The notes beneath the pieces were generated by a model. That model did no database searches, had not been told where the DNA came from, and saw only the letters and a list, made by a program, of their open reading frames with translations. A program made the translations under genes and the position numbers. From a virus: a stretch of DNA of 64,000 bases. Positions within the stretch are counted from its first letter, which is position 1; each line of letters begins with the position of its first letter. This document shows positions 48,954-61,301 of this stretch, in pieces. The DNA is taken from positions 29,665 to 93,664 of IMG/VR virus record IMGVR_UViG_3300034140_000002; one strand, 5' to 3'.

Positions 48954-48985
48954 TTTAGGCTCCTGAGTGGTTAGTTGATGTATTG

Positions 48986-49028
48986 ATTATGGGCCTCCAC
49001 TCAGGCCCTGTCAAGCTTATTTCAAGCT
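48986..49028 (-). promoter_or_regulatory. Early promoter with palindromic upstream box
   Basis: On the minus strand TTGACA (49009-49014) and CATAAT (48986-48991) are 17 bases apart. The box AGCTTATTTCAAGCT (49014-49028) abuts the -35, and the spacer carries GGGCCT/AGGCCC. Confidence 0.8.
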
Positions 49029-49246
49029 AATCTCATCTTGAGGATTTTATACAACAAATCAATCTCGTCCTTGTCTTCCACATACTTACCACCTACAGGC
49101 CATGCGTAGTAAACAACCTTACCATCACGCACAAGCTGCCCTATCATCTTCTGAGCCACTTGCTCCCTGCGCTGCAACACTTCATCGGCTTTGGCTTCCA
49201 ATGTGAAGCGGCGTTTCTCGCGTGCATTGAGTTGAATTTCGTTCAT
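49022..49246 (-). CDS. Hypothetical protein (74 aa)
   Basis: The product has a charged helical N-terminal half (NAREKRRFTLEAKADEVLQRREQVAQKMIG) and a short beta part (DGKVVYYAWPVGGKYVE). Its last codons overlap the upstream box of the next promoter, so coding and control sequence are superimposed. Confidence 0.6.
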   Translation of the reverse strand: MNEIQLNAREKRRFTLEAKADEVLQRREQVAQKMIGQLVRDGKVVYYAWPVGGKYVEDKDEIDLLYKILKMRLA

Positions 49247-49248
49247 GA

Positions 49249-49395
49249 TCAGTTGCTCCAGAAAAACACACGAACATCACGATTGTCCAACTCTACCACT
49301 ACAGCGTTAAAGCCACGTGCGCGGTGAAACTCTGCCTCACTGGTTGCCATACCCATTGCAGAGAATTGGCCGGAGATGTGCATTTGCTTGTTCAT
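49249..49395 (-). CDS. Hypothetical protein (48 aa)
   Basis: The frame MNKQMHISGQFSAMGMATSEAEFHRARGFNAVVVELDNRD... runs from 49395 to a TGA two bases before the next ATG. It is the first gene behind the promoter at 49434-49476. No motif is recognised. Confidence 0.6.
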   Translation of the reverse strand: MNKQMHISGQFSAMGMATSEAEFHRARGFNAVVVELDNRDVRVFFWSN

Positions 49396-49433
49396 GATGT
49401 TTTCCTTTAGTGGGGTTCGCTTGGTATGTATGA

Positions 49434-49476
49434 ACTATAGCAAGCCTAAAACACCATGTCAAGCTTATTTTAAGCT
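49434..49476 (-). promoter_or_regulatory. Early promoter with palindromic upstream box
   Basis: TTGACA (49457-49462) and TATAGT (49434-49439) are 17 bases apart on the minus strand. The box AGCTTATTTTAAGCT (49462-49476) is a perfect 6-bp palindrome with a 3-base centre. Confidence 0.85.
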
Positions 49477-49591
49477 AATTTCTATCGTTGTAAATTATCA
49501 ACACCATCAACCATATTGGACCTGTGAGAATAAATATAGGAAACAACACTGGCATTGCAACGAATGCCACAGCCCTCAATAAATTCAGCAT
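49475..49591 (-). CDS. Small membrane protein (38 aa)
   Basis: The ATG at 49591 overlaps the end of the upstream gene, and the stop lies at the edge of the promoter box. Residues 4-34 are hydrophobic (LLRAVAFVAMPVLFPIFILTG, PIWLMVLIIY), enough for one or two membrane passes. Function is unknown. Confidence 0.5.
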   Translation of the reverse strand: MLNLLRAVAFVAMPVLFPIFILTGPIWLMVLIIYNDRN

Positions 49592-49818
49592 TTCACACCC
49601 TTCTTAGCGGCCTTATAAGCTGCCATAAAATCAGCCTTCCAATTCCTGTCAATAACATACCCTTCCGAATAAGCGTCATCATCTGGGCAACCATCGTTCT
49701 TAAACTCTTTGTCAAGGATGGCGCACACTGCCTTTACTTCTGCCTCATCGCCCTCTACAATCATCCAGACCATACCGCGTTGGAAGCTGCCTTCTTTCTT
49801 CTGCTCGTATGCTTTCAT
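49585..49818 (-). CDS. Hypothetical protein (77 aa)
   Basis: It is the first gene behind the promoter at 49860-49901. The product (MVWMIVEGDEAEVKAVCAILDKEFKNDGCPDDDAYSEGYVID) looks like a small alpha/beta domain with a basic C-terminus. Function is unknown. Confidence 0.65.
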   Translation of the reverse strand: MKAYEQKKEGSFQRGMVWMIVEGDEAEVKAVCAILDKEFKNDGCPDDDAYSEGYVIDRNWKADFMAAYKAAKKGVKC

Positions 49819-49859
49819 GATTTGTTCTCCGCTATGTGTTTGCCTACTCGATGTAATGA

Positions 49860-49901
49860 ATTATACACCCTTCAACGAAGCATGCAAGCTCTTTTTAAGC
49901 T
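49860..49901 (-). promoter_or_regulatory. Early promoter with palindromic upstream box
   Basis: TTGCAT (49882-49887) and a perfect TATAAT (49860-49865) are 16 bases apart on the minus strand. The box AGCTCTTTTTAAGCT lies at 49887-49901. Confidence 0.75.
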
Positions 49902-49971
49902 AACTCCACAAATAAACCAACAATCCCACCATGATAGCCACAGAGAGGGCTTCCACCATTAGCCGCTTCAT
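49900..49971 (-). CDS. Tiny membrane peptide (23 aa)
   Basis: The frame MKRLMVEALSVAIMVGLLVYLWS starts inside the ATGA overlap with the upstream gene and ends at the promoter box. It is a basic start plus one transmembrane helix. Coupling and composition support it, but it is near the limit of what can be called. Confidence 0.4.
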   Translation of the reverse strand: MKRLMVEALSVAIMVGLLVYLWS

Positions 49972-50234
49972 CCCCAATACTCTTCCTGACTTCCAAACGT
50001 CATCCACCCTACTGTCTGAAGCTCTTTCAACGTATCTTGAATGATGTATCCGGCATACCCTCTGTCTGTGCCCAAACTCGCAATACCATTGTTGCCAATT
50101 TCAAGGAAACAAGCTATTGCAGCTATCTCCAAAGCTTTAGGAAGATTGATTACTTCCCGATTTTGGTTCGCTGCCCTGAACGACGGCACAAACTCATACA
50201 CAGCTTTCCATACTAATCTTTGACTGAATTTCAT
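49968..50234 (-). CDS. Hypothetical protein (88 aa)
   Basis: The product (FSQRLVWKAVYEFVPSFRAANQNREVINLPKALEIAAIACFLE) is helical with a GYAGYIIQDTLKEL segment. No family is known. Confidence 0.6.
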   Translation of the reverse strand: MKFSQRLVWKAVYEFVPSFRAANQNREVINLPKALEIAAIACFLEIGNNGIASLGTDRGYAGYIIQDTLKELQTVGWMTFGSQEEYWG

Positions 50235-50259
50235 TTATAATACTCCTAAAGAACAAGGT

Positions 50260-50685
50260 TCACCCTGAAATCACAATACCATTCGGCGTCAGCTTTACCA
50301 TGTACACCACATCAGGCGCATACAGCGTCGTCCCATTAATCCCGCTCGTTCCCACACTAGCACCAAAAATTGTCACCTTTAGCCCTGCATCACTGAGCAT
50401 CAATCCATAGAATTCTGCAAACTTGGCGGGGTCAGAAGTGACAGCACGCGCTACGGCTTCAGCACAGGCTCTAGGAGACGCGCAAACGATGTAGCCTAGG
50501 CTTTGCCCTTGGACGGACATAAAAGCGCCTGTAAAGGGCTTAGAATGCGTCTGAGGCACATTGGCTGCTATTCCGGGGATGGCTGCATTTACTGTGGCGC
50601 TGTGGTCTTGGATTGGTTCGCTAGAACCTCCTCCGCAAGCACTAAGCGTTAGCGTGATGGCTGCTGCGATGAGAGTGGATTTCAT
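50260..50685 (-). CDS. Lipoprotein (141 aa)
   Basis: The N-terminus MKSTLIAAAITLTLSACGGGSSEP is a lipoprotein signal with lipobox LSAC. The mature part has paired Cys (VCASPRACAEAVARA) and a beta-like C-terminus. Early phage lipoproteins often block the receptor or superinfection, as T5 Llp does; that is a possibility, not shown. It lies just downstream of a tRNA-like element. Confidence 0.65.
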   Translation of the reverse strand: MKSTLIAAAITLTLSACGGGSSEPIQDHSATVNAAIPGIAANVPQTHSKPFTGAFMSVQGQSLGYIVCASPRACAEAVARAVTSDPAKFAEFYGLMLSDAGLKVTIFGASVGTSGINGTTLYAPDVVYMVKLTPNGIVISG

Positions 50686-50706
50686 GTCAAGCCTTTATGT
50701 TGTTAG

Positions 50707-50824
50707 GTGCTAGCGGTAGATATCGAAGTCTACAATGCCGCCGGTTTCGGGTGATAGGCTTTGGCGTCCTATTCTAAGCTTTCGCCCCCTAGCCAGTGCG
50801 TCTACCAATTCCGCCACGCTAGCG
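50707..50824 (-). ncRNA. tRNA-Leu-like RNA with aberrant middle
   Basis: On the minus strand a perfect 7-bp acceptor (GCTAGCG/CGCTAGC) is followed by A-CC. The D arm GCG-GAATTGGTAGA-CGC is that of a Leu tRNA. The 3' part GTAGA-CTTCGATA-TCTAC is a T arm with one extra loop base. The roughly 60 bases between do not give a normal anticodon arm but can form GGCT...GGCG/CGCC...AGCC. It is 118 nt: a degraded, interrupted or repurposed tRNA. Confidence 0.5.
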
Positions 50825-50909
50825 TTAATCATTTAGAACATTCAGGCTAACACATCATTTCATTCTTGTCTGTTGTATTTATGCAAATCAGTCTGTTTTT
50901 GTGCACATG

Positions 50910-51059
50910 TTACCCTCGACCTACATTAATCGCCATCAAGCCATACTCTACACCATCACAGTACAGATTGGCAACTCTTGTTACAGCCTCGCCCTTAGTC
51001 TCAGCAGTCACTGTGGCAAAGTATTCGCCGTATCTGTACACTTTGTAAGTTTTAATCAT
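50910..51059 (-). CDS. Hypothetical protein (49 aa)
   Basis: The ATG at 51059 follows GGGGAC; the longer frame has no ribosome site. The product (MIKTYKVYRYGEYFATVTAETKGEAVTRVANL) is a small alpha/beta peptide of a type common in phage early regions. Confidence 0.55.
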   Translation of the reverse strand: MIKTYKVYRYGEYFATVTAETKGEAVTRVANLYCDGVEYGLMAINVGRG

Positions 51060-51143
51060 ACTGTCCCCTGTGTGGCCTAGCGGCCTGTGTTGTCTCTCAA
51101 CCGATGCAATCAGTGTGGCACAATAAAAATTACAATGCAACGT

Positions 51144-51986
51144 TTATTTACATAAAAGATTGTACCAACTCAACAACACAGACCCGCTTTTATGTTCAAT
51201 CGTTGCCTGTCTGCAAGTGCGTCTAGTTGTGCGCCAGCGGAAGATTTCCCACACATCCTTAACAGACATTAGATTAGTACTGTACTCTGTCACCCCCGAC
51301 CTGTCAACCCATTTTACCAGATAATTGTTGCAAATAATAGGTGCTGTTATTACGGGCTGTGTTTTAATAATGACATACTCCCACGTAAAACTGTAAGCAC
51401 TTTTTGTTTTACCTTTACAACAACCCACAATACAACTCTTTGATGCTTTAGGATACCCATTTTCTCTGCACCACAAAGTAGCTGCTGTTATGCTTTCAAA
51501 TACTTTACTGTTGGAGCATAACACAGATTTTTTCTTAGTTCTGCGCTCTTTAATAATAGAAAGCCTCCTGCCACGCTTTGCTAATAATTTGCTTTCCTCG
51601 GATTTGGGTACACCTTTGTTAAGCACACTTAGTTTCTCTTTAGTTGCCTCTGATGCCTTCTTACCTGTTCTTGCGGCTGAAACTTTCTTTCTAGTTTCTG
51701 ACGATGCGAAAGTCGTATTACCCCCTCCGTGTGTCAAATTACAAAGATCATGCTTACAATCTCTGTAGAATTTTATTGTTTCGGCCTCTAACTCTATTGC
51801 ATCATCTGATGTAAGTTTGGATTCTATAATCTCAACTGTGAAGCCGTAATTCTCTGCAATGCATCTCCAGTGGACATTTCTTCCTTGCGATAGCCATGCC
51901 CGCTTATTGCAACCCTTACCCACATAAAAAACTTCATTGTTATCTTTACGCCTGTGCAAATATACATAGTAGTGCTTGTATTCCAT
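51144..51986 (-). CDS. GIY-YIG homing endonuclease with NUMOD repeats
   Basis: The 280-aa protein starts with a GIY-YIG domain (HYYVYLHRRKDNNEVFYVGKGCNKRAW; Glu in ELEAETIKFY). Residues of about 95-135 are NUMOD3-like repeats (SSETRKKVSAARTGKK, SEATKEKLSVLNKGVPKSEE). A NUMOD1/IENR1-like DNA-binding segment follows (FESITAATLWCRENGYPKASKSCIVGCCKG). GC is lower than in neighbours. It is free-standing, 16 bases after a terminator hairpin. Confidence 0.8.
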   Translation of the reverse strand: MEYKHYYVYLHRRKDNNEVFYVGKGCNKRAWLSQGRNVHWRCIAENYGFTVEIIESKLTSDDAIELEAETIKFYRDCKHDLCNLTHGGGNTTFASSETRKKVSAARTGKKASEATKEKLSVLNKGVPKSEESKLLAKRGRRLSIIKERRTKKKSVLCSNSKVFESITAATLWCRENGYPKASKSCIVGCCKGKTKSAYSFTWEYVIIKTQPVITAPIICNNYLVKWVDRSGVTEYSTNLMSVKDVWEIFRWRTTRRTCRQATIEHKSGSVLLSWYNLLCK

Positions 51987-52002
51987 ATTCTTATTCTACC
52001 CC

Positions 52003-52045
52003 TATAAACAATAAAGGCCAGCTTACCCGTAAGGATAGCCAGCCT
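52003..52045 (-). terminator. Terminator upstream of the GIY-YIG gene
   Basis: On the minus strand a 9-bp stem with two G-U pairs (arms 52037-52045 and 52015-52023) is followed by TTTATTGTTTAT. It would end the RNA started at 52316-52344. Confidence 0.65.
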
Positions 52046-52309
52046 ATTCTATATATCATTCTGTGTCTAACTACTGCATTCTTTATTACTTACTGCTATA
52101 TACTACTATCAACCTTGTTCGAATATTTCATCTTCAGTCATAAGCCCCCTTACCCCCATAGCTCAATAAAGAGGCAATGAAAGTAAAGATGACCTATGCT
52201 GAGGATGAAACACCGAACAAGAGAAAGAAGCTGTTAAGCTCCCATCAACCCCGTCCCGAATGATTCCACGCACTCCAGCCCGTCGCCCCGCCCGAGCTTT
52301 CACTCGAAT
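52003..52309 (-). ncRNA. Possible 0.3-kb non-coding transcript
   Basis: A strong promoter (52316-52344) and a terminator (52003-52045) bracket about 305 bases. No convincing gene is seen on the minus strand; the longest option is a 46-codon GTG frame (52304-52164) without a clear ribosome site. A 28-codon frame on the plus strand near 52177 is also unsupported. It may be an untranslated regulator or leader RNA. Confidence 0.4.
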
Positions 52310-52315
52310 ACAGCC

Positions 52316-52344
52316 ATTATACGCCTAGTGTGCAGATTTGTCTA
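52316..52344 (-). promoter_or_regulatory. Strong promoter before a gene-free segment
   Basis: On the minus strand TAGACA (52339-52344) and a perfect TATAAT (52316-52321) are 17 bases apart. Confidence 0.7.
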
Positions 52345-52347
52345 CGA

Positions 52348-52417
52348 TAAGTAGTGCGCTATCTAATATTTATTTCTACTGTAACGATACAGTAGTTTAA
52401 GTAGTGCACGATCTAAT
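52348..52417. promoter_or_regulatory. Operator-like repeats upstream of the 52316 promoter
   Basis: Two 20-bp direct repeats (52348-52367 and 52398-52417, differing at four positions) flank a perfect 8-bp inverted repeat CTACTGTA-ACGA-TACAGTAG (52376-52395). The set begins four bases upstream of the -35. Confidence 0.6.
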
Positions 52418-52513
52418 TGCTCACTATTGTACAGGTTGACAGCCGTATCACTACGTCCAATGCTGCGCTCTGCTTGCCTTCTGCTTAGCTACAGGTTTAT
52501 TAGGGTAAGCTCA

Positions 52514-52906
52514 TCACACCCCCTTCGTGACGCTAGTCACAATCTTATGCCATTCCTCTCCAGCTTCATAACCAGAAATACTAATCCACTGGTAATCCCT
52601 AATCTCCAGCCATTCTGTCACGCTGTCAAGGTTATTGTCAAGTATCCACCCTTGCACCTCTAGCACACAATGCCCCTCTCCGTGTGCAGCACAGAACACC
52701 AGCCGTGAAGGTATGCCAGCCTTCCGACACAGTGCCCGACAAGCAAGGGCAAAATCTTCGCAATCCCCTTTGAACGGAGTCACACCAGCATATACCGGAC
52801 ATTGCCAATGTTCAATGTCTTTGTATTGGTCAATATCTGTGATGTATGTAAAATTACGCTTCACTTGCTTGTGGATGGCGTCAAGCTGTTGTTTTAGGCT
52901 AGGCAT
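52514..52906 (-). CDS. Transglutaminase-like cysteine peptidase
   Basis: The ATG at 52906 follows AGGGGG by seven bases. The 130-aa product has GDCEDFALACRALCRKAGIPSRLVFC (nucleophile Cys), GHCVLEVQGWILDN (His and Asp), the C-H-D arrangement of bacterial transglutaminase-like cysteine peptidases. Targets of phage members are unknown. The next upstream gene, a lipoprotein, overlaps its start. Confidence 0.75.
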   Translation of the reverse strand: MPSLKQQLDAIHKQVKRNFTYITDIDQYKDIEHWQCPVYAGVTPFKGDCEDFALACRALCRKAGIPSRLVFCAAHGEGHCVLEVQGWILDNNLDSVTEWLEIRDYQWISISGYEAGEEWHKIVTSVTKGV

Positions 52907-53067
52907 TAACAATCCCCCTTTGGATTAGCTTTCCGAAGCTCCACACAGCCCACAGGAGGCGTTACAACCTCTCCAATGCTAAAAGGGATGGGCGTAGGCT
53001 CTGGAAGGCGTGGCGGTGCCTCGCAAGCCGTTAGAATGGCTGCTGCAACTAATAGCGATAGTTTCAT
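52906..53067 (-). CDS. Small Pro-rich lipoprotein (53 aa)
   Basis: From ATG 53067 (AGGG six bases upstream) the product is MKLSLLVAAAILTACEAPPRLPEPTPIPF and more, with lipobox LTAC. The Pro-rich mature start is similar in style to Rz1 o-spanins, but no i-spanin partner is adjacent, so this is only a resemblance. It shares one base with the cysteine peptidase gene. Confidence 0.6.
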   Translation of the reverse strand: MKLSLLVAAAILTACEAPPRLPEPTPIPFSIGEVVTPPVGCVELRKANPKGDC

Positions 53068-53069
53068 CT

Positions 53070-53249
53070 TCATCCCTGCAACTCCTCCACATATGTAACC
53101 CAAGCATCATGGGCCAAAACTTGCAACATATCAGCATCTTGCTCTTCATAATCTTTTCCAAACTCAACAGCCCATGATAGATGGCTGTCAGCATCCCGAA
53201 GCGTTGTTACAAGCTCTAACAGCTTGTCTGCCTGCTCTTTAGTTATCAT
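53070..53249 (-). CDS. Hypothetical helical protein (59 aa)
   Basis: The ATG at 53249 follows GGGGTG. The start MITKEQADKLLELVTTLRDAD resembles MDKLTKEQADVVLEAVNKIA of the gene at 54561-54740, so the two are paralogues. Function is unknown. Confidence 0.6.
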   Translation of the reverse strand: MITKEQADKLLELVTTLRDADSHLSWAVEFGKDYEEQDADMLQVLAHDAWVTYVEELQG

Positions 53250-53376
53250 CCCACACCCCATTTTCAACTAACACAGCTTTAGCGTATTCTTGCACGCCAT
53301 CTGTACCTGTACTAACTGCAATCTCTGTTAGTGCCTCAATTAGAGCATTCGCAAGGCTTTCCACTGAATCATACAT
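53239..53376 (-). CDS. Hypothetical protein (45 aa)
   Basis: The ATG at 53376 follows AAAGAGG by six bases. The product (MYDSVESLANALIEALTEIAVSTG) is a short helical peptide. The frame extends upstream without a ribosome site. Confidence 0.55.
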   Translation of the reverse strand: MYDSVESLANALIEALTEIAVSTGTDGVQEYAKAVLVENGVWDDN

Positions 53377-53533
53377 TCCGTGCCTCTTTCGTCTCAACAC
53401 AAACCATTGCACAAAATGTCTCAACAGCGTAGAAATAATTTAAGCTGCGAACGTGTCGGCTTTTAATATAGCTGCGGAAGTCTTTACGCACTCTGCCGGA
53501 GTAGTGCCCCTCTCTTATGTTTCGACTAAGCAT
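53369..53533 (-). CDS. Hypothetical basic protein (54 aa)
   Basis: The frame MLSRNIREGHYSGRVRKDFRSYIKSRHVRSLNYFYAVETF fills the gap between two called genes and overlaps both by 8 bases. It is basic, and no family is recognised. I call it from the tight overlaps; there is no strong ribosome site. Confidence 0.45.
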   Translation of the reverse strand: MLSRNIREGHYSGRVRKDFRSYIKSRHVRSLNYFYAVETFCAMVCVETKEARNV

Positions 53534-53714
53534 TCCGCGCCCTCTCTTCCCGATCCAGCATCACAGCCTTGGCTGCATTCACTTCGTCATAGCCGACATT
53601 GTAGCAGTGTGTGAGTATGTCCGCATCAAGATTGTTGATAGGGGTTTGCCCACCATGTAACAAGCAATCAGAGACAGCATAGACGTAGCTGTCCCATGTA
53701 TAAGCCGTATTCAT
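53526..53714 (-). CDS. Hypothetical protein (62 aa)
   Basis: The ATG at 53714 follows GGAGGTGAAGGA. The product (MNTAYTWDSYVYAVSDCLLHGG...THCYNVGYDEVNAAKAVMLD) is unassigned and coupled to the upstream gene by 4 bases. Confidence 0.6.
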   Translation of the reverse strand: MNTAYTWDSYVYAVSDCLLHGGQTPINNLDADILTHCYNVGYDEVNAAKAVMLDREERARNA

Positions 53715-53968
53715 TCCTTCACCTCCAAAGCACGGCACACACCAGACACCAATACATGTTGATTCAGTCCCAAATTCTTATATGCAAAATAAGCAATGAT
53801 GGCAGCTTGCACACTGTTATAGCTCGCATGCAATTCCTCAATGTGAAATGACGGCTTTGTTTCTGTCACACCTTGGAACGTACCAATGTATTTCACCACC
53901 TCGATTGCATCGCCATCAAAATCATATTGGAAGCGGTCAATCACCTTGCCCCATGGAAATTTGTTCAT
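53711..53968 (-). CDS. Hypothetical protein (85 aa)
   Basis: The ATG at 53968 follows GGGAGGATATT. The product (MNKFPWGKVIDRFQYDFDGDAIEVVKYIGTFQ) has an alpha/beta look and a hydrophobic helix (QAAIIAYFAYKNLGL). Function is unknown. Confidence 0.65.
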   Translation of the reverse strand: MNKFPWGKVIDRFQYDFDGDAIEVVKYIGTFQGVTETKPSFHIEELHASYNSVQAAIIAYFAYKNLGLNQHVLVSGVCRALEVKE

Positions 53969-54082
53969 AATATCCTCCCACCTCATTAGAGGCTCTGTAA
54001 GCCCTCGTAACCACGTTTGGCTACGCTGCTATACCTTTGTGTCTGTTATGGCCTTGTAGGCCCCTTAAAACGCTTCCTAGAG

Positions 54083-54238
54083 CTATTGTTTGTAAGTGTA
54101 CAGCACCAAATACCCATCTGAATCTTTTTGTACGTCCTTTACCTCACTCAATTCGTCATTACCTCCGGCATATTCCCAGAAATAGACACTTTCATCTGGC
54201 ATCTCTAGCAACGCCCTTGCTAATTCGTGCGCGGTCAT
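54083..54238 (-). CDS. Hypothetical protein, MT-[AS]-HELA family (51 aa)
   Basis: The frame MTAHELARALLEMPDESVYFWEYAGG... is coupled to the upstream gene by a 4-base overlap. It is a paralogue of 54406-54564 (same N-terminal helix MTxHELAxxLLxxPD). Function is unknown. Confidence 0.6.
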   Translation of the reverse strand: MTAHELARALLEMPDESVYFWEYAGGNDELSEVKDVQKDSDGYLVLYTYKQ

Positions 54239-54396
54239 TTGTCAAGCCTCAACACTTCAATAATTTCCTTAGCATACAGGTAATCCGCATGCTCTGTAGT
54301 GTCACAGTCGCGCATTATCTCTAATGCCCTAATGATGACGTTAAGCTCATTCGTATTCATCTGCACATTGTGTGTTGTTTCTAACATAGTAATCAT
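54235..54396 (-). CDS. Hypothetical helical protein (53 aa)
   Basis: The frame MITMLETTHNVQMNTNELNVIIRALEIMRDCDT... lies between the two HELA paralogues. It is mostly helical and unassigned. Confidence 0.55.
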   Translation of the reverse strand: MITMLETTHNVQMNTNELNVIIRALEIMRDCDTTEHADYLYAKEIIEVLRLDK

Positions 54397-54405
54397 TTTA
54401 TTCTC

Positions 54406-54564
54406 CTAGTCAACATCATTATATAATGTTACCTCTGAACCCGGCCCACCATCGCCGTAAGTGAATCCCGTAACATCTTCCCATCCCTCAGCATCTGGGC
54501 ACCAGCTTAGAATAGGTTGATCAGGCGTATTCAATAGCATGTGTGCTAATTCGTGGCTTGTCAT
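54406..54564 (-). CDS. Hypothetical protein, MT-[AS]-HELA family (52 aa)
   Basis: The frame MTSHELAHMLLNTPDQPILSWCPDAEGWEDVTG... overlaps the upstream gene by 4 bases and is paralogous to 54083-54238. The C-terminal half is acidic and beta-like. Confidence 0.6.
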   Translation of the reverse strand: MTSHELAHMLLNTPDQPILSWCPDAEGWEDVTGFTYGDGGPGSEVTLYNDVD

Positions 54565-54740: not shown

Positions 54741-54741
54741 A

Positions 54742-54930: not shown

Positions 54931-54966
54931 TATATATCCCCTAATCTTCCACTTTAGATGAAGACT

Positions 54967-55158: not shown

Positions 55159-55159
55159 G

Positions 55160-55330: not shown

Positions 55331-55331
55331 G

Positions 55332-55574: not shown

Positions 55575-55600
55575 TTTATGGCCTCGTTGTGTTATGTTTA

Positions 55601-55725
55601 AAAGCACTTATAACCGCTAGTTGGAATCGAACCAACCCTTGATTCTTAAGCAACTGGAATCGCTTTAGTCTCTGTCCGCCCTAAGATGTTCCAGCATCCC
55701 TTGCAGTAGCGGTTATAAGTGCTTT
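55601..55725 (-). ncRNA. tRNA-like RNA closed by a 19-bp perfect helix
   Basis: AAAGCACTTATAACCGCTA at 55601-55619 and its exact complement at 55707-55725 enclose 87 bases. On the minus strand the 3' part is a perfect tRNA T arm (GTTGG-TTCGATT-CCAAC) joined directly to TAGCGGT. The 5' part has a small GCA/TGC arm, then TGGAA...TTCCA. No normal anticodon arm is seen. The promoter 55738-55780 starts RNA about 6 bases before it. Confidence 0.6.
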
Positions 55726-55737
55726 GTTAGTGAGTTC

Positions 55738-55780
55738 ATTATCAGGCATCTTGCGACACCTGTCAAGCTTATTTTGAGCT
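55738..55780 (-). promoter_or_regulatory. Early promoter with palindromic upstream box, driving the tRNA-like RNA
   Basis: TTGACA (55761-55766) and GATAAT (55738-55743) are 17 bases apart on the minus strand. The box AGCTTATTTTGAGCT lies at 55766-55780. Confidence 0.8.
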
Positions 55781-55978
55781 ATCGCCATGTAAAACAACAA
55801 TATCAAAACAATCTTCCAGTGCTTTCGCTGTGTACCAAGTGATGTTACCCCGGCGATTGACAAGGTACATAGGTTTGTTGTTCTCGTCAGCATCAAGCAA
55901 GCGGCCCACCACTACAACCTCATCGAAAATTTCTTTGTCTTTGATGATTGCGCCAAGGGGGAATTTGAAATTGTGCAT
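55769..55978 (-). CDS. Hypothetical beta-rich protein (69 aa)
   Basis: It is the first gene behind the promoter at 56030-56072. The product (MHNFKFPLGAIIKDKEIFDEVVVVGRLLDADENNKPMYLV) is the paralogue of 54967-55158. Its 3' end contains the box of the next promoter. Confidence 0.6.
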   Translation of the reverse strand: MHNFKFPLGAIIKDKEIFDEVVVVGRLLDADENNKPMYLVNRRGNITWYTAKALEDCFDIVVLHGDSSK

Positions 55979-56029
55979 TTTGTGATTTCCTTAGATATTT
56001 GAGTTAGTCTTTTGCAAGACAGTGAAGCT

Positions 56030-56072
56030 ATTATGGCACAGCTTGTTAGGCTGTGCAAGCTTTATTTAAGCT
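56030..56072 (-). promoter_or_regulatory. Early promoter with palindromic upstream box
   Basis: TTGCAC (56053-56058) and CATAAT (56030-56035) are 17 bases apart on the minus strand. The box AGCTTTATTTAAGCT lies at 56058-56072. Confidence 0.75.
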
Positions 56073-56295
56073 AAACGCCAATCTGGAATTCCACACGCAT
56101 ACCGCTAGGATGCACAGCGATATAGCCCCACTCCTCCCGAGGATAGCACAGCGATTGAATGTTGGCTTGCTCCTCTGCTTCCTCTTTCGCCCATTCGAAC
56201 GTCTCACCCTCACCAAAGCCGATTTCAGCACCGAAGCAAACGATTGTGTATGTGTAGAGGGACCCCTCCGGGGCGCTACCTTTGGTAGTGGACAT
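56071..56295 (-). CDS. Hypothetical protein (74 aa)
   Basis: The product (MSTTKGSAPEGSLYTYTIVCFGAEIGFGEGETFEWAKEEAEEQ) has an acidic helix in the middle and a beta-like end. It is the first gene behind the promoter at 56342-56383; its stop touches the next box. Confidence 0.6.
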   Translation of the reverse strand: MSTTKGSAPEGSLYTYTIVCFGAEIGFGEGETFEWAKEEAEEQANIQSLCYPREEWGYIAVHPSGMRVEFQIGV

Positions 56296-56341
56296 GATAT
56301 TCTTTCGTTAGGAGGCTGCGCCGTTCGCTGCCAATAAACAC

Positions 56342-56383
56342 AGTATACAGGGTTTTTCAGAACATGCAAGCTCTTTTTAAGCT
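56342..56383 (-). promoter_or_regulatory. Early promoter with palindromic upstream box
   Basis: TTGCAT (56364-56369) and TATACT (56342-56347) are 16 bases apart on the minus strand. The box AGCTCTTTTTAAGCT lies at 56369-56383. Confidence 0.7.
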
Positions 56384-56398
56384 AAATTGTGTTGTATC

Positions 56399-56668
56399 TT
56401 ATCCACAAACCCCGTCCACCTGAAACGGCATATCAAGATAGTACAAAACTGTGCCTAACTTTTCGTGCACGTAAACATCGTCTGGCTCATCTCGGCTGTA
56501 CTCCTGAGAATTACGGAAGTCATCAAAATACGTTTTGTCATAGATGCTCAGGGACGGATCACCGATTGTGAAGGCTCCTAGACGCTCGCTAGGGCATTTA
56601 TCTAGCAAGGCTTGCAGTTTGTCCAGCCATTTGGTTTCTGCTGCTGTGAGGGGTTTTACGGGCTTCAT
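56399..56668 (-). CDS. Hypothetical protein (89 aa)
   Basis: The product (MKPVKPLTAAETKWLDKLQALLDKCPSERLGAFTIGDPSLSIYD) has an N-terminal helix of the type seen in phage proteins that begin 'LTxxExKWLxxLQxxLxxCPS' and an acidic second half. Function is unknown. Confidence 0.65.
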   Translation of the reverse strand: MKPVKPLTAAETKWLDKLQALLDKCPSERLGAFTIGDPSLSIYDKTYFDDFRNSQEYSRDEPDDVYVHEKLGTVLYYLDMPFQVDGVCG

Positions 56669-56671
56669 ATC

Positions 56672-56872
56672 TTAATAACCTTTAAATTCTGCATTGCCAT
56701 ACAACCACATAAGCACCTCTTGCGCGTTTTCAATAGTGTACCCACGGTCGGCGCAAGCTGCAAGGCAGTAATTAAGCGTTGAGCTAATTATCAATTCGTC
56801 CGCGCATGTCACATCGGCATACACTATTTCCGGACGGCTATTATTTGATTTGCATGTAATTTTGACTCGCAT
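56672..56872 (-). CDS. Hypothetical protein (66 aa)
   Basis: The ATG at 56872 follows AAGGGG. The product (MRVKITCKSNNSRPEIVYADVTCADELIISSTLNYCLAACADRG) has five Cys and a helical C-terminus. Function is unknown. Confidence 0.6.
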   Translation of the reverse strand: MRVKITCKSNNSRPEIVYADVTCADELIISSTLNYCLAACADRGYTIENAQEVLMWLYGNAEFKGY

Positions 56873-56873
56873 A

Positions 56874-57224
56874 TCATTTCCCCTTAACAATCTTGTTAAT
56901 CTCGTCCAACCTAGCTTGCAAAGCTGCTTTTTCCTCTTGTAAAGCTCTAAACTTGTCGGCGCTATGTTCGTCTACAGGTTCTATATGAACCTCTTTGAAG
57001 TCTCCACCACCGCCCCATTGCCAAAAGTGTGGAAGATTTACAGCTAGCGTAATCACATCTGACAGCTTCCCTGTGAAAAACCCGAGTGTAGGTTGATGAT
57101 GACTCCCGCCCATGTCGCAATTAGGGTCTTCGCCTAACACTTGCCAAGTGGCTACTTTTTCCAATTGCGCTTTAGTGAGCCTTTTACCTGTCCATGTTTT
57201 CAGGTAGTCGTTAAGTGTTTTCAT
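56874..57224 (-). CDS. Hypothetical protein (116 aa)
   Basis: The product has a globular N-terminal part (YLKTWTGKRLTKAQLEKVATWQVLG, FFTGKLSDVITLAVNLPHFWQWGGGGDF) and a C-terminal coiled coil (DKFRALQEEKAALQARLDEINKIV). The layout is common in phage early genes; role unknown. Confidence 0.65.
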   Translation of the reverse strand: MKTLNDYLKTWTGKRLTKAQLEKVATWQVLGEDPNCDMGGSHHQPTLGFFTGKLSDVITLAVNLPHFWQWGGGGDFKEVHIEPVDEHSADKFRALQEEKAALQARLDEINKIVKGK

Positions 57225-57227
57225 GAT

Positions 57228-57398
57228 TTATTGTCCAATAAATACAGGTTCAAAAGGGTGAAAATTATCTGTCCACTCTTCACCGTATTGGGCGCGGATT
57301 GCACAATTTTCAGAAATCTTAACATAGAAAAAATCATCATCCTCCATGTTCTTAAACTTTGTGTTCAAAGCAATATCTTTAAATTTTACTGATTGCAT
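57228..57398 (-). CDS. Hypothetical beta-rich protein (56 aa)
   Basis: The ATG at 57398 follows GGGGAAT. The product (MQSVKFKDIALNTKFKNMEDDDFFYVKISENCAIRAQYGEEWTD) looks like a small beta barrel. The frame extends upstream into the antisense of codons of the next gene, without start signals. Confidence 0.6.
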   Translation of the reverse strand: MQSVKFKDIALNTKFKNMEDDDFFYVKISENCAIRAQYGEEWTDNFHPFEPVFIGQ

Positions 57399-57399
57399 A

Positions 57400-57924
57400 T
57401 TATTCCCCAAACCAAAATTGATTGCAATACTCCAGCAACACACTATGATCGATATGCATGCTGTCAAGCATCGTCCAAGGAGTACCCCAGTCTTGGTATT
57501 CAATCCATGCGCGGCAAGGATAACCATCTTCGTCAAGCTCGCCCATGATTCGGACAGCGGGGCCACCTGTGCAGAGGAGGATATAGAATTCTGATACACC
57601 CATATCCGCGCCTACAGTGTGCCAGTCCCCGCGCACCTGTACGTCTAAGGCATCCTCTTGGATACGATCGCGTGCTTCGTCAGCGTCTTTGCAATTGCCT
57701 GCTGCTGCTTCCAGTTCTGTGAGTTCGCCAGCCTCTTCCGGGTAGAGATTATCCCCATTACAGCGTGCTTCCTCCTCCATCTCCCGCAATTCATTTAAGC
57801 GTTCATAGTTGACCGATAGGGCAACAACCATAACGGCAATGCTGCTGTATTGTGCAAGGGCTTGATCCTTGGCGTTGCTAGTGCCAGCAATAAATTCTTT
57901 TGGGTAGCTTTTGTTATAGGACAT
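57400..57924 (-). CDS. Conserved phage protein (174 aa)
   Basis: It is the first gene behind the promoter at 57952-57980. The helical N-terminal half leads to a segment VRGDWHTVGADMGVSEFYILLCTGGPAVRIMGELDEDGYPCRAWIEYQDWGTPWT. I recognise that segment from a widespread phage early family of unknown function. This is the most conserved-looking gene of the arm. Confidence 0.7.
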   Translation of the reverse strand: MSYNKSYPKEFIAGTSNAKDQALAQYSSIAVMVVALSVNYERLNELREMEEEARCNGDNLYPEEAGELTELEAAAGNCKDADEARDRIQEDALDVQVRGDWHTVGADMGVSEFYILLCTGGPAVRIMGELDEDGYPCRAWIEYQDWGTPWTMLDSMHIDHSVLLEYCNQFWFGE

Positions 57925-57951
57925 TTTATTCTTTCAAGAGTTGATGAGCTA

Positions 57952-57980
57952 ATTATGAGCTAACTTATGATGTAATGCAA
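57952..57980 (-). promoter_or_regulatory. Early promoter, variant without the upstream palindrome
   Basis: TTGCAT (57975-57980) and CATAAT (57952-57957) are 17 bases apart on the minus strand. Instead of the usual box, two copies of TTAGCTCA overlap the spacer and -10. Confidence 0.6.
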
Positions 57981-57983
57981 GAA

Positions 57984-58148
57984 TTAAATCCAACTATTTA
58001 CAGATTCTTCTAAATCCTGCTCGTTGAGATTGTACACATGATGATACATTTTGGACTCAATATCGGTTGCCCACCCCTCCCGCACCATCTTTTGCAAATG
58101 TTCAACTTCTTCATCTGACAACACCACAATACAGACATTCTTTTTCAT
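57984..58148 (-). CDS. Hypothetical protein (54 aa)
   Basis: The ATG at 58148 follows AAGGAGA. The product (MKKNVCIVVLSDEEVEHLQKMVREGWATDIESKMYHHVYNL) is a short strand followed by helices. Function is unknown. Confidence 0.6.
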   Translation of the reverse strand: MKKNVCIVVLSDEEVEHLQKMVREGWATDIESKMYHHVYNLNEQDLEESVNSWI

Positions 58149-58159
58149 AACGTTTCTCC

Positions 58160-58687
58160 TTAATTGACCCTGAAAATCCAATATCCCGCTGCTTCCTCTT
58201 CGCTGCCATCATATCCGCTAAACTGGTGCCCGTAGCCATCCACATAGGCGTTCTGTGCAGTTTTCTCCCAATCAATCGACACAGCAATAAAGGATGGCAT
58301 TTTATCTAGGTTAATAACATCGGAGTAGCAATCCTCTACCGTTTCTTTGATGGCGTCAACGTAGATTTCCCAAATTTCACTGTCTTTAATCAAGCGGTAT
58401 TCGTTGCCGTCAAAGTCGAGCGTAAAATCGTCTGTGCCAATGTTGGCTTCCAGTTCTTCCAGAGCGTCAAAGATATCAGACACTTGCTCGCTAACGTTCT
58501 CTTGATTTTCTTCTAACGTAGCATCATTGTCATAATCATCTGGAAAAGGGATAGTGTGCGACTGACTATCACAAATCATTTGCAGGATTTCCACAGCACG
58601 GCCCATGTCGCTATCTTCGTGAGGGATGTCTTTGCCGGTTGCAGTGAACAGCGCGAGGATTTCAGCGTTACGAGTGGCGAATGTCAT
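58160..58687 (-). CDS. Very acidic protein (175 aa)
   Basis: Asp and Glu dominate throughout (DSDMGRAVEILQMICDSQ, TLEENQENVSEQVSDIFDALEELEANIGTDDFTLDFDG). The end GYGHQFSGYDGSEEEAAGYWIFRVN is a motif I have seen in phage early proteins. DNA mimicry, as in some antirestriction proteins, is suggested only by charge. Confidence 0.6.
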   Translation of the reverse strand: MTFATRNAEILALFTATGKDIPHEDSDMGRAVEILQMICDSQSHTIPFPDDYDNDATLEENQENVSEQVSDIFDALEELEANIGTDDFTLDFDGNEYRLIKDSEIWEIYVDAIKETVEDCYSDVINLDKMPSFIAVSIDWEKTAQNAYVDGYGHQFSGYDGSEEEAAGYWIFRVN

Positions 58688-58720
58688 TTTGTGCTTTCTG
58701 TTTGTTGAGTTGATATACGT

Positions 58721-58762
58721 ATGATACAGGGTTTTTAGGAATGTGCAAGCTTATTTTAAGCT
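58721..58762 (-). promoter_or_regulatory. Early promoter with palindromic upstream box
   Basis: TTGCAC (58743-58748) and TATCAT (58721-58726) are 16 bases apart on the minus strand. The box AGCTTATTTTAAGCT lies at 58748-58762. Confidence 0.75.
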
Positions 58763-58775
58763 ATTTGCAGATAAA

Positions 58776-59033
58776 TTAATCGGGCCATTGCCTGTTATGA
58801 TTGTGCAACCAATTACCGGATGATACCAAACGTTCTGCCCAGTTCTTAGCTTGCGCCAGCGTATCAAAGAATTCCAGTTCCCCGCCACCGTCATCACCCT
58901 CCAAGAATACGCAACCGAAGTAATCCCCCGCAGCGGATTTTTCCACTTTGACGTAATAATCTTTAGTTTCATCGGGCTGCTCGATATCTAACCAATGAAT
59001 CCAACCTATATCTGTCCGCTCTTTTGCCCACAT
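58776..59033 (-). CDS. Hypothetical protein (85 aa)
   Basis: The product (WIHWLDIEQPDETKDYYVKVEKSAAGDYFGCVFLEGDDGGGELEF, then a helix AQAKNWAERLV) looks like a small alpha/beta domain. Function is unknown. Confidence 0.6.
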   Translation of the reverse strand: MWAKERTDIGWIHWLDIEQPDETKDYYVKVEKSAAGDYFGCVFLEGDDGGGELEFFDTLAQAKNWAERLVSSGNWLHNHNRQWPD

Positions 59034-59042
59034 ATCAACCCC

Positions 59043-59180
59043 CTAGAAAATGTGAATTTCTTTAACAGCCGACATACTCAAGCCACAGAAACGCGCCATC
59101 TTCAGCGCCTCATCATAGCTATCATAAAAGAACGTCCGACCTGCCTTGTTAATCATGCTCCACTTATATTGCATCTTCAT
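59043..59180 (-). CDS. Hypothetical protein (45 aa)
   Basis: The frame MKMQYKWSMINKAGRTFFYDSYDEALKMARFCGLSMSAVKEIHIF is behind the promoter at 59232-59275 and ends 10 bases before the next ATG. It is too short for family assignment. Confidence 0.6.
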   Translation of the reverse strand: MKMQYKWSMINKAGRTFFYDSYDEALKMARFCGLSMSAVKEIHIF

Positions 59181-59231
59181 TTTATAGTCCTCTGTCATTT
59201 GCTGGCCTGCGAGTGCAGAGCCGATAGACAG

Positions 59232-59275
59232 ATAGTACAGGCGTGTTTGATCCTTGTCAACGCCTATTTTAAGCT
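59232..59275 (-). promoter_or_regulatory. Early promoter with half upstream box
   Basis: TTGACA (59255-59260) and TACTAT (59232-59237) are 17 bases apart on the minus strand. The distal arm TAAGCT is intact and the proximal arm is degenerate (ACGCCTATTTTAAGCT). Confidence 0.7.
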
Positions 59276-59305
59276 AAATCAATTTGTTGCTTCGTTACCA
59301 CATCC

Positions 59306-59488
59306 TTACAAATGAGCATGCGTAAAATTATCCACCCTCCAGAAATCCTCTGTGTACGCCCTCAGCCAACCATTGTGCCATGCATTAAACTCTTTGCTCT
59401 TAGGCTTGCAAGGGTTCTCAACCTCCCGAGCATGCCCCGCATAGGCTGTGTACCCTGCTAGAAAGCTTTCTTGCTCTGACTTGTTCAT
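59306..59488 (-). CDS. RMF-like mini-protein (60 aa)
   Basis: The product FLAGYTAYAGHAREVENPCKPKSKEFNAWHNGWLRAYTE carries the RMF-like pattern G-Y-x-A-Y-x-G ... N-P ... W-x-x-G-W. It is the fourth such gene in the arm. Confidence 0.6.
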   Translation of the reverse strand: MNKSEQESFLAGYTAYAGHAREVENPCKPKSKEFNAWHNGWLRAYTEDFWRVDNFTHAHL

Positions 59489-59490
59489 TT

Positions 59491-59697
59491 TTAGTAGCCC
59501 TCATTTGAAGAGAAATATTCACAAATCTGCTCACCGTTGACAAAATGAAGCGGTGCAACTGTAAACCACGATTGCCGGTATTCGTTCTGCACGGCTGTAT
59601 GCCTGTAGCACTGATGACGTTTTGCACAGATGCGTACAATTGTCCCGTTAGTTGTCGGGGTTTCTGATCTGCCCTCACACATTGCGACATCGGCCAT
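59491..59697 (-). CDS. Hypothetical Cys-containing protein (68 aa)
   Basis: The ATG at 59697 follows AGGAG. The product (MADVAMCEGRSETPTTNGTIVRICAKRHQCYRHTA) has three Cys and two His in the first 35 residues and may bind zinc (C-x-x-x-x-x-C spacing is irregular). Function is unknown. Confidence 0.6.
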   Translation of the reverse strand: MADVAMCEGRSETPTTNGTIVRICAKRHQCYRHTAVQNEYRQSWFTVAPLHFVNGEQICEYFSSNEGY

Positions 59698-59882
59698 TAT
59701 TTGCACTCCTGTGGATGTTCTTGTGCATGCCCTGCAACACGCTCGTAATAATCCGTACTTGTTTCGATGCCATCAGAGGCGCACAAAGACGCCTTAGCGG
59801 CTCTATTGCCGTGAATAGCTACCATTGCCAGCCCTGCGAGGAATAACAGCGCTACAAGACCTTGTATGATGTATTGTCGCAT
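59697..59882 (-). CDS. Small membrane protein (61 aa)
   Basis: From ATG 59882 the product begins MRQYIIQGLVALLFLAGLAMVAIHG, one transmembrane helix with a short cytoplasmic start. An exported tail with two Cys follows (ASLCASDGIETSTDYYERVAGHAQEHPQEC). Function is unknown. Confidence 0.6.
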   Translation of the reverse strand: MRQYIIQGLVALLFLAGLAMVAIHGNRAAKASLCASDGIETSTDYYERVAGHAQEHPQECK

Positions 59883-59883
59883 G

Positions 59884-60081
59884 TTAGAACCCGTTGTTAT
59901 AGAATACTTCGGAAAGCTCAGACGGATAGACATCGAATTCCCCGAAAGAATATCCACATTCGTGAGTAGCTACAATCCCTATAGGAGAAGTTAGGCGGCG
60001 GTCAGACATGAAATTTTTTAGGGATGAGAAACCCACACCGGGTGTGTGCGTCAACTTTGCGAAATCTTCGTTTGTGAACAT
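59884..60081 (-). CDS. Hypothetical protein (65 aa)
   Basis: The ATG at 60081 follows AGGGGGATGAC. The product (MFTNEDFAKLTHTPGVGFSSLKNFMSDRRLTSPIGIVATHECG) is unassigned. Confidence 0.6.
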   Translation of the reverse strand: MFTNEDFAKLTHTPGVGFSSLKNFMSDRRLTSPIGIVATHECGYSFGEFDVYPSELSEVFYNNGF

Positions 60082-60082
60082 G

Positions 60083-60337
60083 TCATCCCCCTTTCTTGGG
60101 AAGCTGCATAATTTCAAATACTGTTTGCATAGGAACATCGTTAGCTAAAAGCTGCTGACGAAATGTCTTGGCTTCATCAGAGAGAGGATTAAGTCTCACA
60201 TGGCGCAATACATCGCCGCGCTTAGCTTCCATTCGTGCCACCCATACACCTTCTGGAGAGCGAACCCGGACGCTTGCCGGGCGGGTTCCTGTGCCATGAG
60301 AGGATGTTACTTTGTAGCCATTGTATGTGTTTTTCAT
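60083..60337 (-). CDS. Hypothetical basic protein (84 aa)
   Basis: The product (MKNTYNGYKVTSSHGTGTRPASVRVRSPEGVWVARMEAKRGD) has a basic beta-like N-terminal half and a helical end. It lies one base before the next gene downstream. Confidence 0.6.
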   Translation of the reverse strand: MKNTYNGYKVTSSHGTGTRPASVRVRSPEGVWVARMEAKRGDVLRHVRLNPLSDEAKTFRQQLLANDVPMQTVFEIMQLPKKGG

Positions 60338-60559
60338 TTATTCGCCTCGCATGCGTTTGTTAATATAGCTATTAGGATCAATTGCAGATGCTAAAATTTT
60401 ACCAAATGTTTCCTGATGGTGCGCCAACTCTTGATGCATGTTTGCACGATACTTTTCAACTTCCATTTCCAGTTCTACGCACCGCTGGCGCAAACTTGAG
60501 AGTTCTTCCTGTTGGTCTAGGAGTTGATAGGCAAAGTCTGTAAGGTTAAAATCACTCAT
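60338..60559 (-). CDS. Coiled-coil protein (73 aa)
   Basis: The ATG at 60559 follows GGAG by eight bases. Residues 12-50 are a coiled coil (LLDQQEELSSLRQRCVELEMEVEKYRANMHQ). Function is unknown. Confidence 0.6.
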   Translation of the reverse strand: MSDFNLTDFAYQLLDQQEELSSLRQRCVELEMEVEKYRANMHQELAHHQETFGKILASAIDPNSYINKRMRGE

Positions 60560-60674
60560 CGCTAGCACTCCAATAAAAACCATTAGCCTTCATGTTGAAA
60601 ATAAACTCTTTATACGATAATGGCGACTCGCTGTCAATCCATTGCTTGCGTGCTGCGAGAGTGATGATAGACAT
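60552..60674 (-). CDS. Hypothetical peptide (40 aa)
   Basis: The frame MSIITLAARKQWIDSESPLSYKEFIFNMKANGFYWSASDE overlaps both neighbours (TAATG upstream, 8 bases downstream). Called from coupling; unassigned. Confidence 0.5.
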   Translation of the reverse strand: MSIITLAARKQWIDSESPLSYKEFIFNMKANGFYWSASDE

Positions 60675-60760
60675 TATACTTCCTCCAACAGAAAATGAAC
60701 ACTTTCGACACCCCTCTTGCCCACTGCGATGACGTGAAATTTCTTAAAGATGTCATGCAT
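60674..60760 (-). CDS. Hypothetical peptide (28 aa)
   Basis: The frame MHDIFKKFHVIAVGKRGVESVHFLLEEV starts one base after the stop of the upstream gene and ends in a TAATG junction. It is short but conserved in style with its neighbours. Confidence 0.45.
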   Translation of the reverse strand: MHDIFKKFHVIAVGKRGVESVHFLLEEV

Positions 60761-60761
60761 T

Positions 60762-60962
60762 TTATTCTCCCTGTAAGCGGTTTTTAAGGTTGTTGATAGC
60801 TGCTTGCAATTCCTCATTGCTTTTCATCTCCGCCAATCCGTCTGAGTCGTTCAAGTGGTCAAAGTAGATATTTCGTACCCTTACGCCTTGATGGCCTTTT
60901 GGCCTCACCATCAAAGCATTTCGCAGGCTGATAAATTCTTGCTGGAGTTGTTCGCGTGTCAT
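60762..60962 (-). CDS. Hypothetical protein (66 aa)
   Basis: The ATG at 60962 follows AGAGG. The longer frame crosses the promoter at 60993-61035, so it is rejected. The product starts with a helix (MTREQLQQEFISLRNALMVRPKG) and ends with another (NEELQAAINNLKNRL). Function is unknown. Confidence 0.6.
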   Translation of the reverse strand: MTREQLQQEFISLRNALMVRPKGHQGVRVRNIYFDHLNDSDGLAEMKSNEELQAAINNLKNRLQGE

Positions 60963-60992
60963 TTTGTGCCTCTTTGTTTGTTCGATGAGTTC

Positions 60993-61035
60993 AGTATCTT
61001 CTAGTCCGAAGCGTCTGTCAAGCTCTTTTTGAGCT
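60993..61035 (-). promoter_or_regulatory. Early promoter with palindromic upstream box
   Basis: TTGACA (61016-61021) and GATACT (60993-60998) are 17 bases apart on the minus strand. The box AGCTCTTTTTGAGCT (61021-61035) has perfect AGCTC/GAGCT arms. Confidence 0.8.
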
Positions 61036-61294: not shown

Positions 61295-61301
61295 AGGTGC
61301 C

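Follow-up and report, generated by a model that had tools for sequence, protein, structure and literature searches.

The minus-strand arm (45105-64000, ~19 kb) of the window, which is the 64,000-nucleotide stretch of viral DNA analysed here (positions 29665-93664 of the 93,664-base IMG/VR record IMGVR_UViG_3300034140_000002), contains nine promoters in which a box, TAGCT-N7-AGCTTG or in one case a degenerate form of it, stands at the -35 hexamer. On balance, these promoters are probably repeated early-promoter cassettes for the sigma70 RNA polymerase of the host, each with an A-tract that resembles an UP element, copied across a region in which small genes are shuffled; the distal TAGCT would be an addition to them. 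At the orthologous promoters of related phages the palindrome formed by the box is lost or, once, re-spaced, whilst the A-tract, the GCTTG-type -35 and the leader are kept, and hence the shared unit looks like an UP-type promoter for host RNA polymerase.

The phage has, in order, terminase, portal, capsid and tail genes (with a tape measure protein of 1789 aa), a tRNA cluster, DNA polymerase, primase-helicase and ribonucleotide reductase. This gene order, together with a terminase that shares 39% identity with those of PAK_P1-group phages, assigns it to the virulent myoviruses of the Felix O1/PAK_P1 group. When the terminase was queried against bacterial genomes in a search for the host, no relative was matched. 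The arm comprises ~55 small genes, nearly all without an assigned function, a type of gene typical of host takeover. Its synteny with the hypervariable regions of PAK_P2 and Felix O1, along with the host-type promoters, suggests that the arm and its promoters are early. Promoters were called by consensus, several of the tests were selected after the sequences had been viewed, and labels such as 49477 or 56073 denote the box-end coordinate of a promoter (here 49434..49477 and 56030..56073).

Architecture of the boxed promoters

An earlier note on this DNA had proposed at least nine minus-strand promoters with a palindrome of the AGCTTA-N3-TAAGCT type, or a one- to three-base variant, overlapping the -35, and the promoters themselves hold up, as all nine coordinates correspond to the last base of the -10 hexamer of a sigma70-type promoter (Table 1). 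A spacer of 16-17 bases separates the -35 from the -10 (9/9). The overlap with the -35 stands for eight of the promoters, which carry the exact box and in which the second AGCT ends on the T that opens the -35. It fails at 59232, where the distal arm (TAGCTTAAAAT) is intact, AGGCG replaces the proximal AAGCT, and the box lies 1 bp farther from the -35. The -35 is TTGACA in five of the nine and TTGCAY in the remainder, and the -10s are good. The stop codon of the preceding gene (TAG, TGA or TAA) was rightly said often to fall within the box, and does so in six promoters. An A-tract at ~-46 to -38 is 90% A/T and 64% A. A CAYYGA motif, ~6 bases past the -10, is common to the promoter starts, and if its A is taken as the start then the box centre would lie at ~-43.

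The box is strongly enriched. A position weight matrix built from the eight intact sites scores these at 30-33 bits and nothing else in the 93.7 kb above 14.3; ten Markov genomes reach maxima of 10.5-18.2 bits, and the eight sites match by construction. A count independent of the matrix ranks TAGCT-N8-GCTTG first among the 5+5 dyads of the arm by over-representation (9 against 0.09 expected). The full TAGCT-N7-AGCTTG occurs 9 times in the 19-kb arm against 0.007 expected from 300 Markov shuffles, the ninth exact match being an out-of-register site at 61615-61629, and TAGCT-N7-AGCT occurs 11 times against 0.09 expected, whilst none of the other spacings between 0 and 24 yields more than 2.

Within the box, nothing but the pair of AGCT words is invariant. 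The three inner pairs of each box match in 9/24 cases across the eight intact boxes, which is the number that column composition predicts, so there is no covariation. As AGCT is its own reverse complement, an inverted repeat is indistinguishable from a direct one of 11-bp period, and the case for dyad symmetry comes down to a four-base word present twice.

Hairpins lie within the spacer at p<0.025 in four of the nine boxed promoters, the p-values having been computed with mononucleotide shuffles. None has a T-run (U-run in the RNA) on the sense strand, and the single terminator-like example belongs to the opposite strand. Hairpins in the 5' leaders are suggestive in three related leaders and overall not significant (p 0.17), and a terminator scan gave 19 against 15 in shuffles, which is no excess. 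The possibility that the palindrome forms a hairpin or terminates the upstream gene was rejected in view of its A/T-rich stem and the lack of a sense-strand T-run.

Orthologous promoters in related phages

Relatives were collected through terminase searches (G002, 48 kb; G003, 93.6 kb; G006, G008, G009 and fragments). G002 is the only one with a clearly syntenic early arm, having 5 early-arm genes in common at 35-89% identity, and is itself a fragment. DNA alignment of the flanks pairs promoter 49477 with G002 4347, 56073 with G002 11001, 55781 with both G002 7103 and G003 12244, and 51140 with G003 13799. The -35 region and the leader align at every pair. The A-tract and some of the spacer hairpins are kept too, the latter with altered stems: GCACAGC/GCTGTGC against CACGG/CCGTG at 56073/11001, and CAGGTGTC/GATGCCTG against CAGGG/CCCTG at 55781/7103. 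The palindrome, with its AGCT distal arm, is missing at G002 4347, 11001 and 7103, and is re-spaced to N6 in G003 12244. Loss of the box from promoters that stay active in relatives had been named beforehand as evidence against a shared regulator, and this is largely what the alignments give, with the predicted promoter, -35 and leader retained.

G002 and G003 each repeat a uniform box of their own (TAATTTAAAATAAGCTTG and TAAGAAARRGCTTG, respectively), which is non-palindromic in both. The early promoters of G002 carry AATAATTTAAAATAAGCTTG at 4347, 4681, 5323, 10782 and 11001 and a second form, AAAATAATCCTTG, at 5997, 9569, 16298 and 16418, whilst those of G003 carry (A)TAAGAAARRGCTTG at 8771, 9898, 11054, 11872 and 17673. 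PAK_P2 has six near-identical promoters at record positions 53-68 kb that are A-rich before TTGACA and have an inverted repeat, GGCCATTC/GAATGGCC, over the -10, plus more divergent copies. A uniform sequence of its own is thus seen in the repeated early promoters of each phage of the clade (G003 8771-17673; G002 4347-16418; PAK_P2 record 55.9-67 kb). The consensus is ttagcTtaAAa..agcTTG in the present phage,.taa.t.aAA..A..cTTG in G002, TaAGAAAg.GCTTG in G003 and aa..aA.g.TTGACa in PAK_P2. The mean number of palindromic pairs in the 15-mer is 4.8/7 here, 3.3 in G002, 1.4 in G003 and 2.3 in PAK_P2, and the A-tract of the relatives is 73-93% A/T. As the boxes of the relatives are uniform and yet non-palindromic, uniformity within a genome is by itself no sign of a dimeric regulator.

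The TAGCT distal arm is so far known from this genome only. Felix O1 showed no comparable box at 1-13.5 kb. Exact searches of IMG/VR gave 17 matches to TTAGCTTNAAANNAGCTTG, of which one was promoter-like and lay in an unrelated 30-kb contig, and zero to AGCTTAAAATAAGCTTG. The genome collection searched for AGCTTAAAATAAGCTTGNCA likewise gave zero matches, and the box was therefore seen in no host operon. The spacer motif GTTTTWGGYTTGCTATA was also followed in IMG/VR and dropped, its matches being mainly chance ones in coding sequence, with real promoters in only three contigs of another phage group.

A proposed repeated cassette for host RNA polymerase

In the favoured explanation, host sigma70 RNA polymerase would read repeated early-promoter cassettes of a virulent phage of the Felix O1/PAK_P1 type. 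Each cassette would begin at or beside the stop codon of the preceding gene and continue with the A-rich tract at ~-46 to -38, which may act like the proximal subsite of an UP element by contacting the C-terminal domain of the RNA polymerase alpha subunit. A (G)CTTGac-type -35, the 16-17 base spacer with its hairpin in some copies, the -10 and the CAYYGA start motif would follow. Such a cassette, common to the relatives, would have been copied through the shuffling region of small genes, and the distal TAGCT, with which the palindrome becomes complete, would not be required by the basic promoter and may serve as an operator. Recognition by sigma70 and the alpha subunit, the early timing and the start site are all proposed from the DNA. 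Recognising such repeated, genome-specific promoter cassettes would offer a way to locate transcription units and the borders of gene shuffling in uncultured phages of the clade.

In favour of this explanation are the orthologous promoters that retain the unit without the palindrome, the consensus sequences of the individual genomes, the A/T content of the tract, the lack of covariation between the inner pairs, the spacer hairpins, and the gain or loss of genes between cassettes. Several points weigh against it. The UP proximal consensus (Estrem), with which the tract was compared, consists of A and T only; AGCT at -50 to -47 places a G and a C in 9/9 promoters, which such a consensus does not predict. 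The three out-of-register TAGCT-N7-AGCT sites point to recognition of the dyad itself, and closer early arms, sought with the ArdA-like protein and gene 188, yielded nothing usable beyond G002. The design as such is an expected one, since the early promoters of T4 are 'uber' promoters for host RNA polymerase that combine UP, -35, TGn and -10 elements (PMC2988021). These likewise comprise many strong sigma70-type promoters that are A/T-rich upstream of the -35, with a consensus extending beyond the core (PMC2988021); in the present phage, which is of the Felix O1/PAK_P1 type, the upstream element by contrast holds the invariant G/C word AGCT at -50, and an extended -10 is rare.

Possible gene shuffling around the promoters

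Modules have been gained or lost at promoter borders between this phage and G002 in two cases, among the few genomes compared. In G002 the 56073-type promoter and its leader stand directly before a homologue (30% identity) of gene 55332-55574, whereas here they are separated by gene 55769-55978, promoter 55781 and a tRNA-like RNA. The leader tail ACAGAAAGCACAAAATGAC is found before the ArdA-like gene here and before a homologue of gene 57400-57924 in G002. These differences resemble the shuffling attributed to the PeSL cassettes of T4-type phages. Such cassettes, which Arbiol and colleagues reportedly described in 2010 from RB49 and phi1, are said to be sigma70 promoter units with stem-loop terminators. 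Both systems have repeated sigma70 promoter units and hairpins between the small genes of a variable region apparently subject to gene gain and loss. The hairpins here differ in lying within the -35/-10 spacer and not looking like sense-strand terminators. The cassette of PAK_P2 (a Pakpunavirus) offers a further parallel, with near-identical sigma70 promoters along the early arm, in which TTGACA follows an A-rich tract and which include an inverted repeat; there, however, the uniform part runs from -35 to +20, the inverted repeat covers the -10, and no AGCT palindrome is found at the -35.

Alternative roles for the box

The box might be mainly a patch of homology for recombination between PeSL-like promoter units, shuffling the hyperplastic early region. 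The boxes abut stop codons, modules come and go between orthologous promoters and their leaders, and some promoters appear mosaic, the spacer and -10 of 49477 resembling those of the unboxed 62326 and 63022 whilst its box resembles other boxes; the PAK_P2 cassette with its inverted repeat over the -10 fits as well. This is nevertheless unlikely as the principal role, because recombination alone leaves unexplained 20 uniform bp beside diverging spacers, and because PeSL stem-loops are reportedly terminators whereas the hairpins here have no sense-strand U-run, the one terminator-like example being on the opposite strand. A second proposal, from the earlier note, was that one dimeric regulator binds the box, as repressor or as class II activator. 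TAGCT is fixed in 9/9 promoters and the three out-of-register copies are compatible with a sequence-specific factor, so this part of the proposal retains some force, whereas loss or re-spacing of the palindrome at orthologous promoters, and the uniform yet non-palindromic boxes of relatives, go against it. As a class II activator, a dimer at ~-43 would recruit RNA polymerase in the manner of Mor at the Mu promoter Pm, where an inverted repeat occupies a 15-16 bp element centred near -43 (the 16-bp element at -43.5; PMC4390567), a position that the box would share if the A of CAYYGA is the start. Pm, however, has no -35, the Mor site taking its place, and needs Mor (PMC4390567); here a -35 is present in all nine promoters, TTGACA in five and TTGCAY in the others, with good -10s, and no Mor-like protein was found among the 150 of 189 predicted proteins scanned. 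Out-of-register sites at ~-9 and ~-32 could not activate. An activator is thus very improbable.

A repressor operator has a better claim, and is a possible though less probable reading than the repeated cassette. A phage or host protein would bind AGCT-N7-AGCT through two major-groove contacts 11 bp apart, cover the -35 or -10 region and silence the early promoters, with relatives using other specificities. The fixed spacing of TAGCT, its excess over other spacings and the out-of-register copies, one straddling a -10 (57947), another covering a -35 with its spacer (61615) and the third placed ahead of an unboxed promoter (63033), are consistent with this. The estimate for the at least three extra TAGCT-N7-AGCT sites is ~0.001 from a rough Poisson calculation made post hoc. 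If these sites are real, a repressor would account for their shifting placement across the contacts of RNA polymerase better than a class II activator would. There is also precedent in SrpA, a host XRE protein and positive regulator of the RNA polymerase gene in the PAK_P1-like phage K5, which binds a palindrome upstream of that gene; its site, NTATC-N(0-9)-GATAN, differs from TAGCT-N7-AGCTTG (PMC5945682). Against an operator stand the absence or re-spacing of the dyad in relatives, the broken arm at 59232, and the promoters that have no box in register, at least five promoter-like sites of the arm (61630, 62326, 63022, 51140 and 57980) being of this kind. In line with the earlier note, no regulator gene for the arm was identified: none, helix-turn-helix or other, was found among 150 of the 189 predicted proteins (Pfam and PHROGs, E<=0.01), large proteins of known type and structural proteins having been set aside, and the helix-turn-helix protein gp150 of PAK_P2 has no homologue in this phage. 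Within the arm, the proteins scanned include a single one of a known DNA-binding type, a serine recombinase (45105-45752). Gene 49968-50234 was considered as a winged-helix protein and dropped, as it has no PHROG or PDB relative and a low AlphaFold predicted local distance difference test score of 54. A phage- or host-encoded factor of unrecognised fold may still bind the box.

A further suggestion, which we regard as doubtful, is that each lineage of these virulent phages labels its early promoters with an operator particular to it at ~-43, and that a lineage-specific protein, as yet unseen, shuts early genes off later in infection or excludes co-infecting relatives, giving an immunity-like code without lysogeny. 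Dispersed repressor operators (stoperators) are known from cluster A mycobacteriophages such as L5, where they are 13-bp asymmetric sites to which a known repressor of this temperate phage binds as a monomer (PMC9283540). Like them, the box is present in many copies at promoters and in short intergenic spaces with a lineage-specific specificity (11 TAGCT-N7-AGCT sites here). The differences are that the site here is a dyad in a phage of virulent type, that no repressor gene was found among the 150/189 proteins, and that in G002 and G003 the site is neither conserved at orthologous promoters nor replaced by another dyad. Should the AGCT dyad bind a protein, it would provide a testable route to early-gene shutoff in such virulent phages, of which no description was found in the literature searched.

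Table 1. Boxed, unboxed and out-of-register sites of the arm (all on the minus strand; positions are those of the window or, where named, of the relative)
Coordinates	Box or motif	AGCT...AGCT 15-mer	Promoter	Upstream stop codon in box	Remarks
48986..49029	TAGCTTGAAATAAGCTTG	49014-49028	TTGACA-N17-CATAAT	TGA	spacer hairpin GGGCCT/AGGCCC
49434..49477	TAGCTTAAAATAAGCTTG	49462-49476	TTGACA-N17-TATAGT	TAG	ortholog G002 4344-4441, box there TAATTTAAAATAATG
49860..49902	TAGCTTAAAAAGAGCTTG	49887-49901	TTGCAT-N16-TATAAT	TAG	spacer hairpin
55738..55781	TAGCTCAAAATAAGCTTG	55766-55780	TTGACA-N17-GATAAT	TAA	spacer hairpin CAGGTGTC-GCAA-GATGCCTG; orthologs G002 7103, G003 12244; tRNA-like structure behind
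56030..56073	TAGCTTAAATAAAGCTTG	56058-56072	TTGCAC-N17-CATAAT	TAG	spacer hairpin GCACAGC/GCTGTGC; 5' leader hairpin; ortholog G002 11002-11068 (79% identity)
56342..56384	TAGCTTAAAAAGAGCTTG	56369-56383	TTGCAT-N16-TATACT		
58721..58763	TAGCTTAAAATAAGCTTG	58748-58762	TTGCAC-N16-TATCAT		precedes ArdA-like gene 58160-58687
59232..59276	TAGCTTAAAATAGGCG (degenerate)		TTGACA-N17-TACTAT		distal arm only, 1 bp farther from -35
60993..61036	TAGCTCAAAAAGAGCTTG	61021-61035	TTGACA-N17-GATACT	TAG	
51112..51140	AAATAAACG before it		TTGCAT-N17-CACACT (promoter-like)		unboxed; ortholog G003 13799-13889
57947..57961	AGCT-N7-AGCT (AGCTCATAATTAGCT)		TTGCAT-N17-CATAAT (putative)		out of register, across -10 (CATAAT 57952-57957); before gene 57400-57924
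61615..61629	AGCTTGCTTTCAGCT		TTGCTT-N16-TAGAAT (61599-61626)		out of register, covering -35 and spacer
62294..62322	TAGC before it		TTGCTT-N17-TATAGT		unboxed, without distal arm
62979..63007	TAGC before it		TTGCTT-N17-TATAGT		unboxed, without distal arm
63033..63047	AGCTTGCGCGTAGCT				out of register; centre ~69 bp upstream of putative start of unboxed promoter 62979..63007

Other features of the arm

The protein encoded at 58160-58687 (-), behind the boxed promoter 58721, has weak similarity to ArdA antirestriction proteins (Pfam E 0.007). The product of 52517-52906 (-) appears to be a transglutaminase-like cysteine proteinase (Peptidase_C93), an assignment made from its sequence and not by a tool, and is the likely source of the arm's Pfam matches at E 4.5e-16 and 7e-11. 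Small proteins resembling ribosome modulation factor (RMF) are present too (Pfam E 2e-4).

Just behind promoter 55738, at 55604-55722 (-), lies a strongly folded tRNA-like RNA with a minimum free energy of -53 kcal/mol for 181 bases. It has an acceptor-like stem of ~16 bp (GCACTTATAACCGCTA...TAGCGGTTATAAGTGC) and a T-arm, GTTGG TTCGATT CCAAC; ARAGORN makes no call and the Rfam match to tRNA-Sec is weak (E 0.24). A tRNA-Leu-like sequence at 50708-50823 (-) (GCTAGCGTGGCGGAATTGGTAGACGCA...GTAGACTTCGATATCTACCGCTAGCACC), with no ARAGORN call either, may represent a second tRNA-like RNA within the early arm.

Clusters of DnaA boxes (TGTGGATAA) adjoin a serine recombinase gene in both this phage (46640-46706, -) and G002 (17263-17449). 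The clusters, that of G002 (L083) having nine boxes within 190 bases, look like a replication origin or a DnaA trap, and G002 also encodes an O-like replication initiator at 14020-14589. In the early arm of a further phage (L158, 3763-10700; IMGVR_UViG_3300025030_000312), an 18-bp palindromic repeat, AAGTGARATYTCACATTT, occurs seven times, mostly just before the ribosome-binding sites of small genes.

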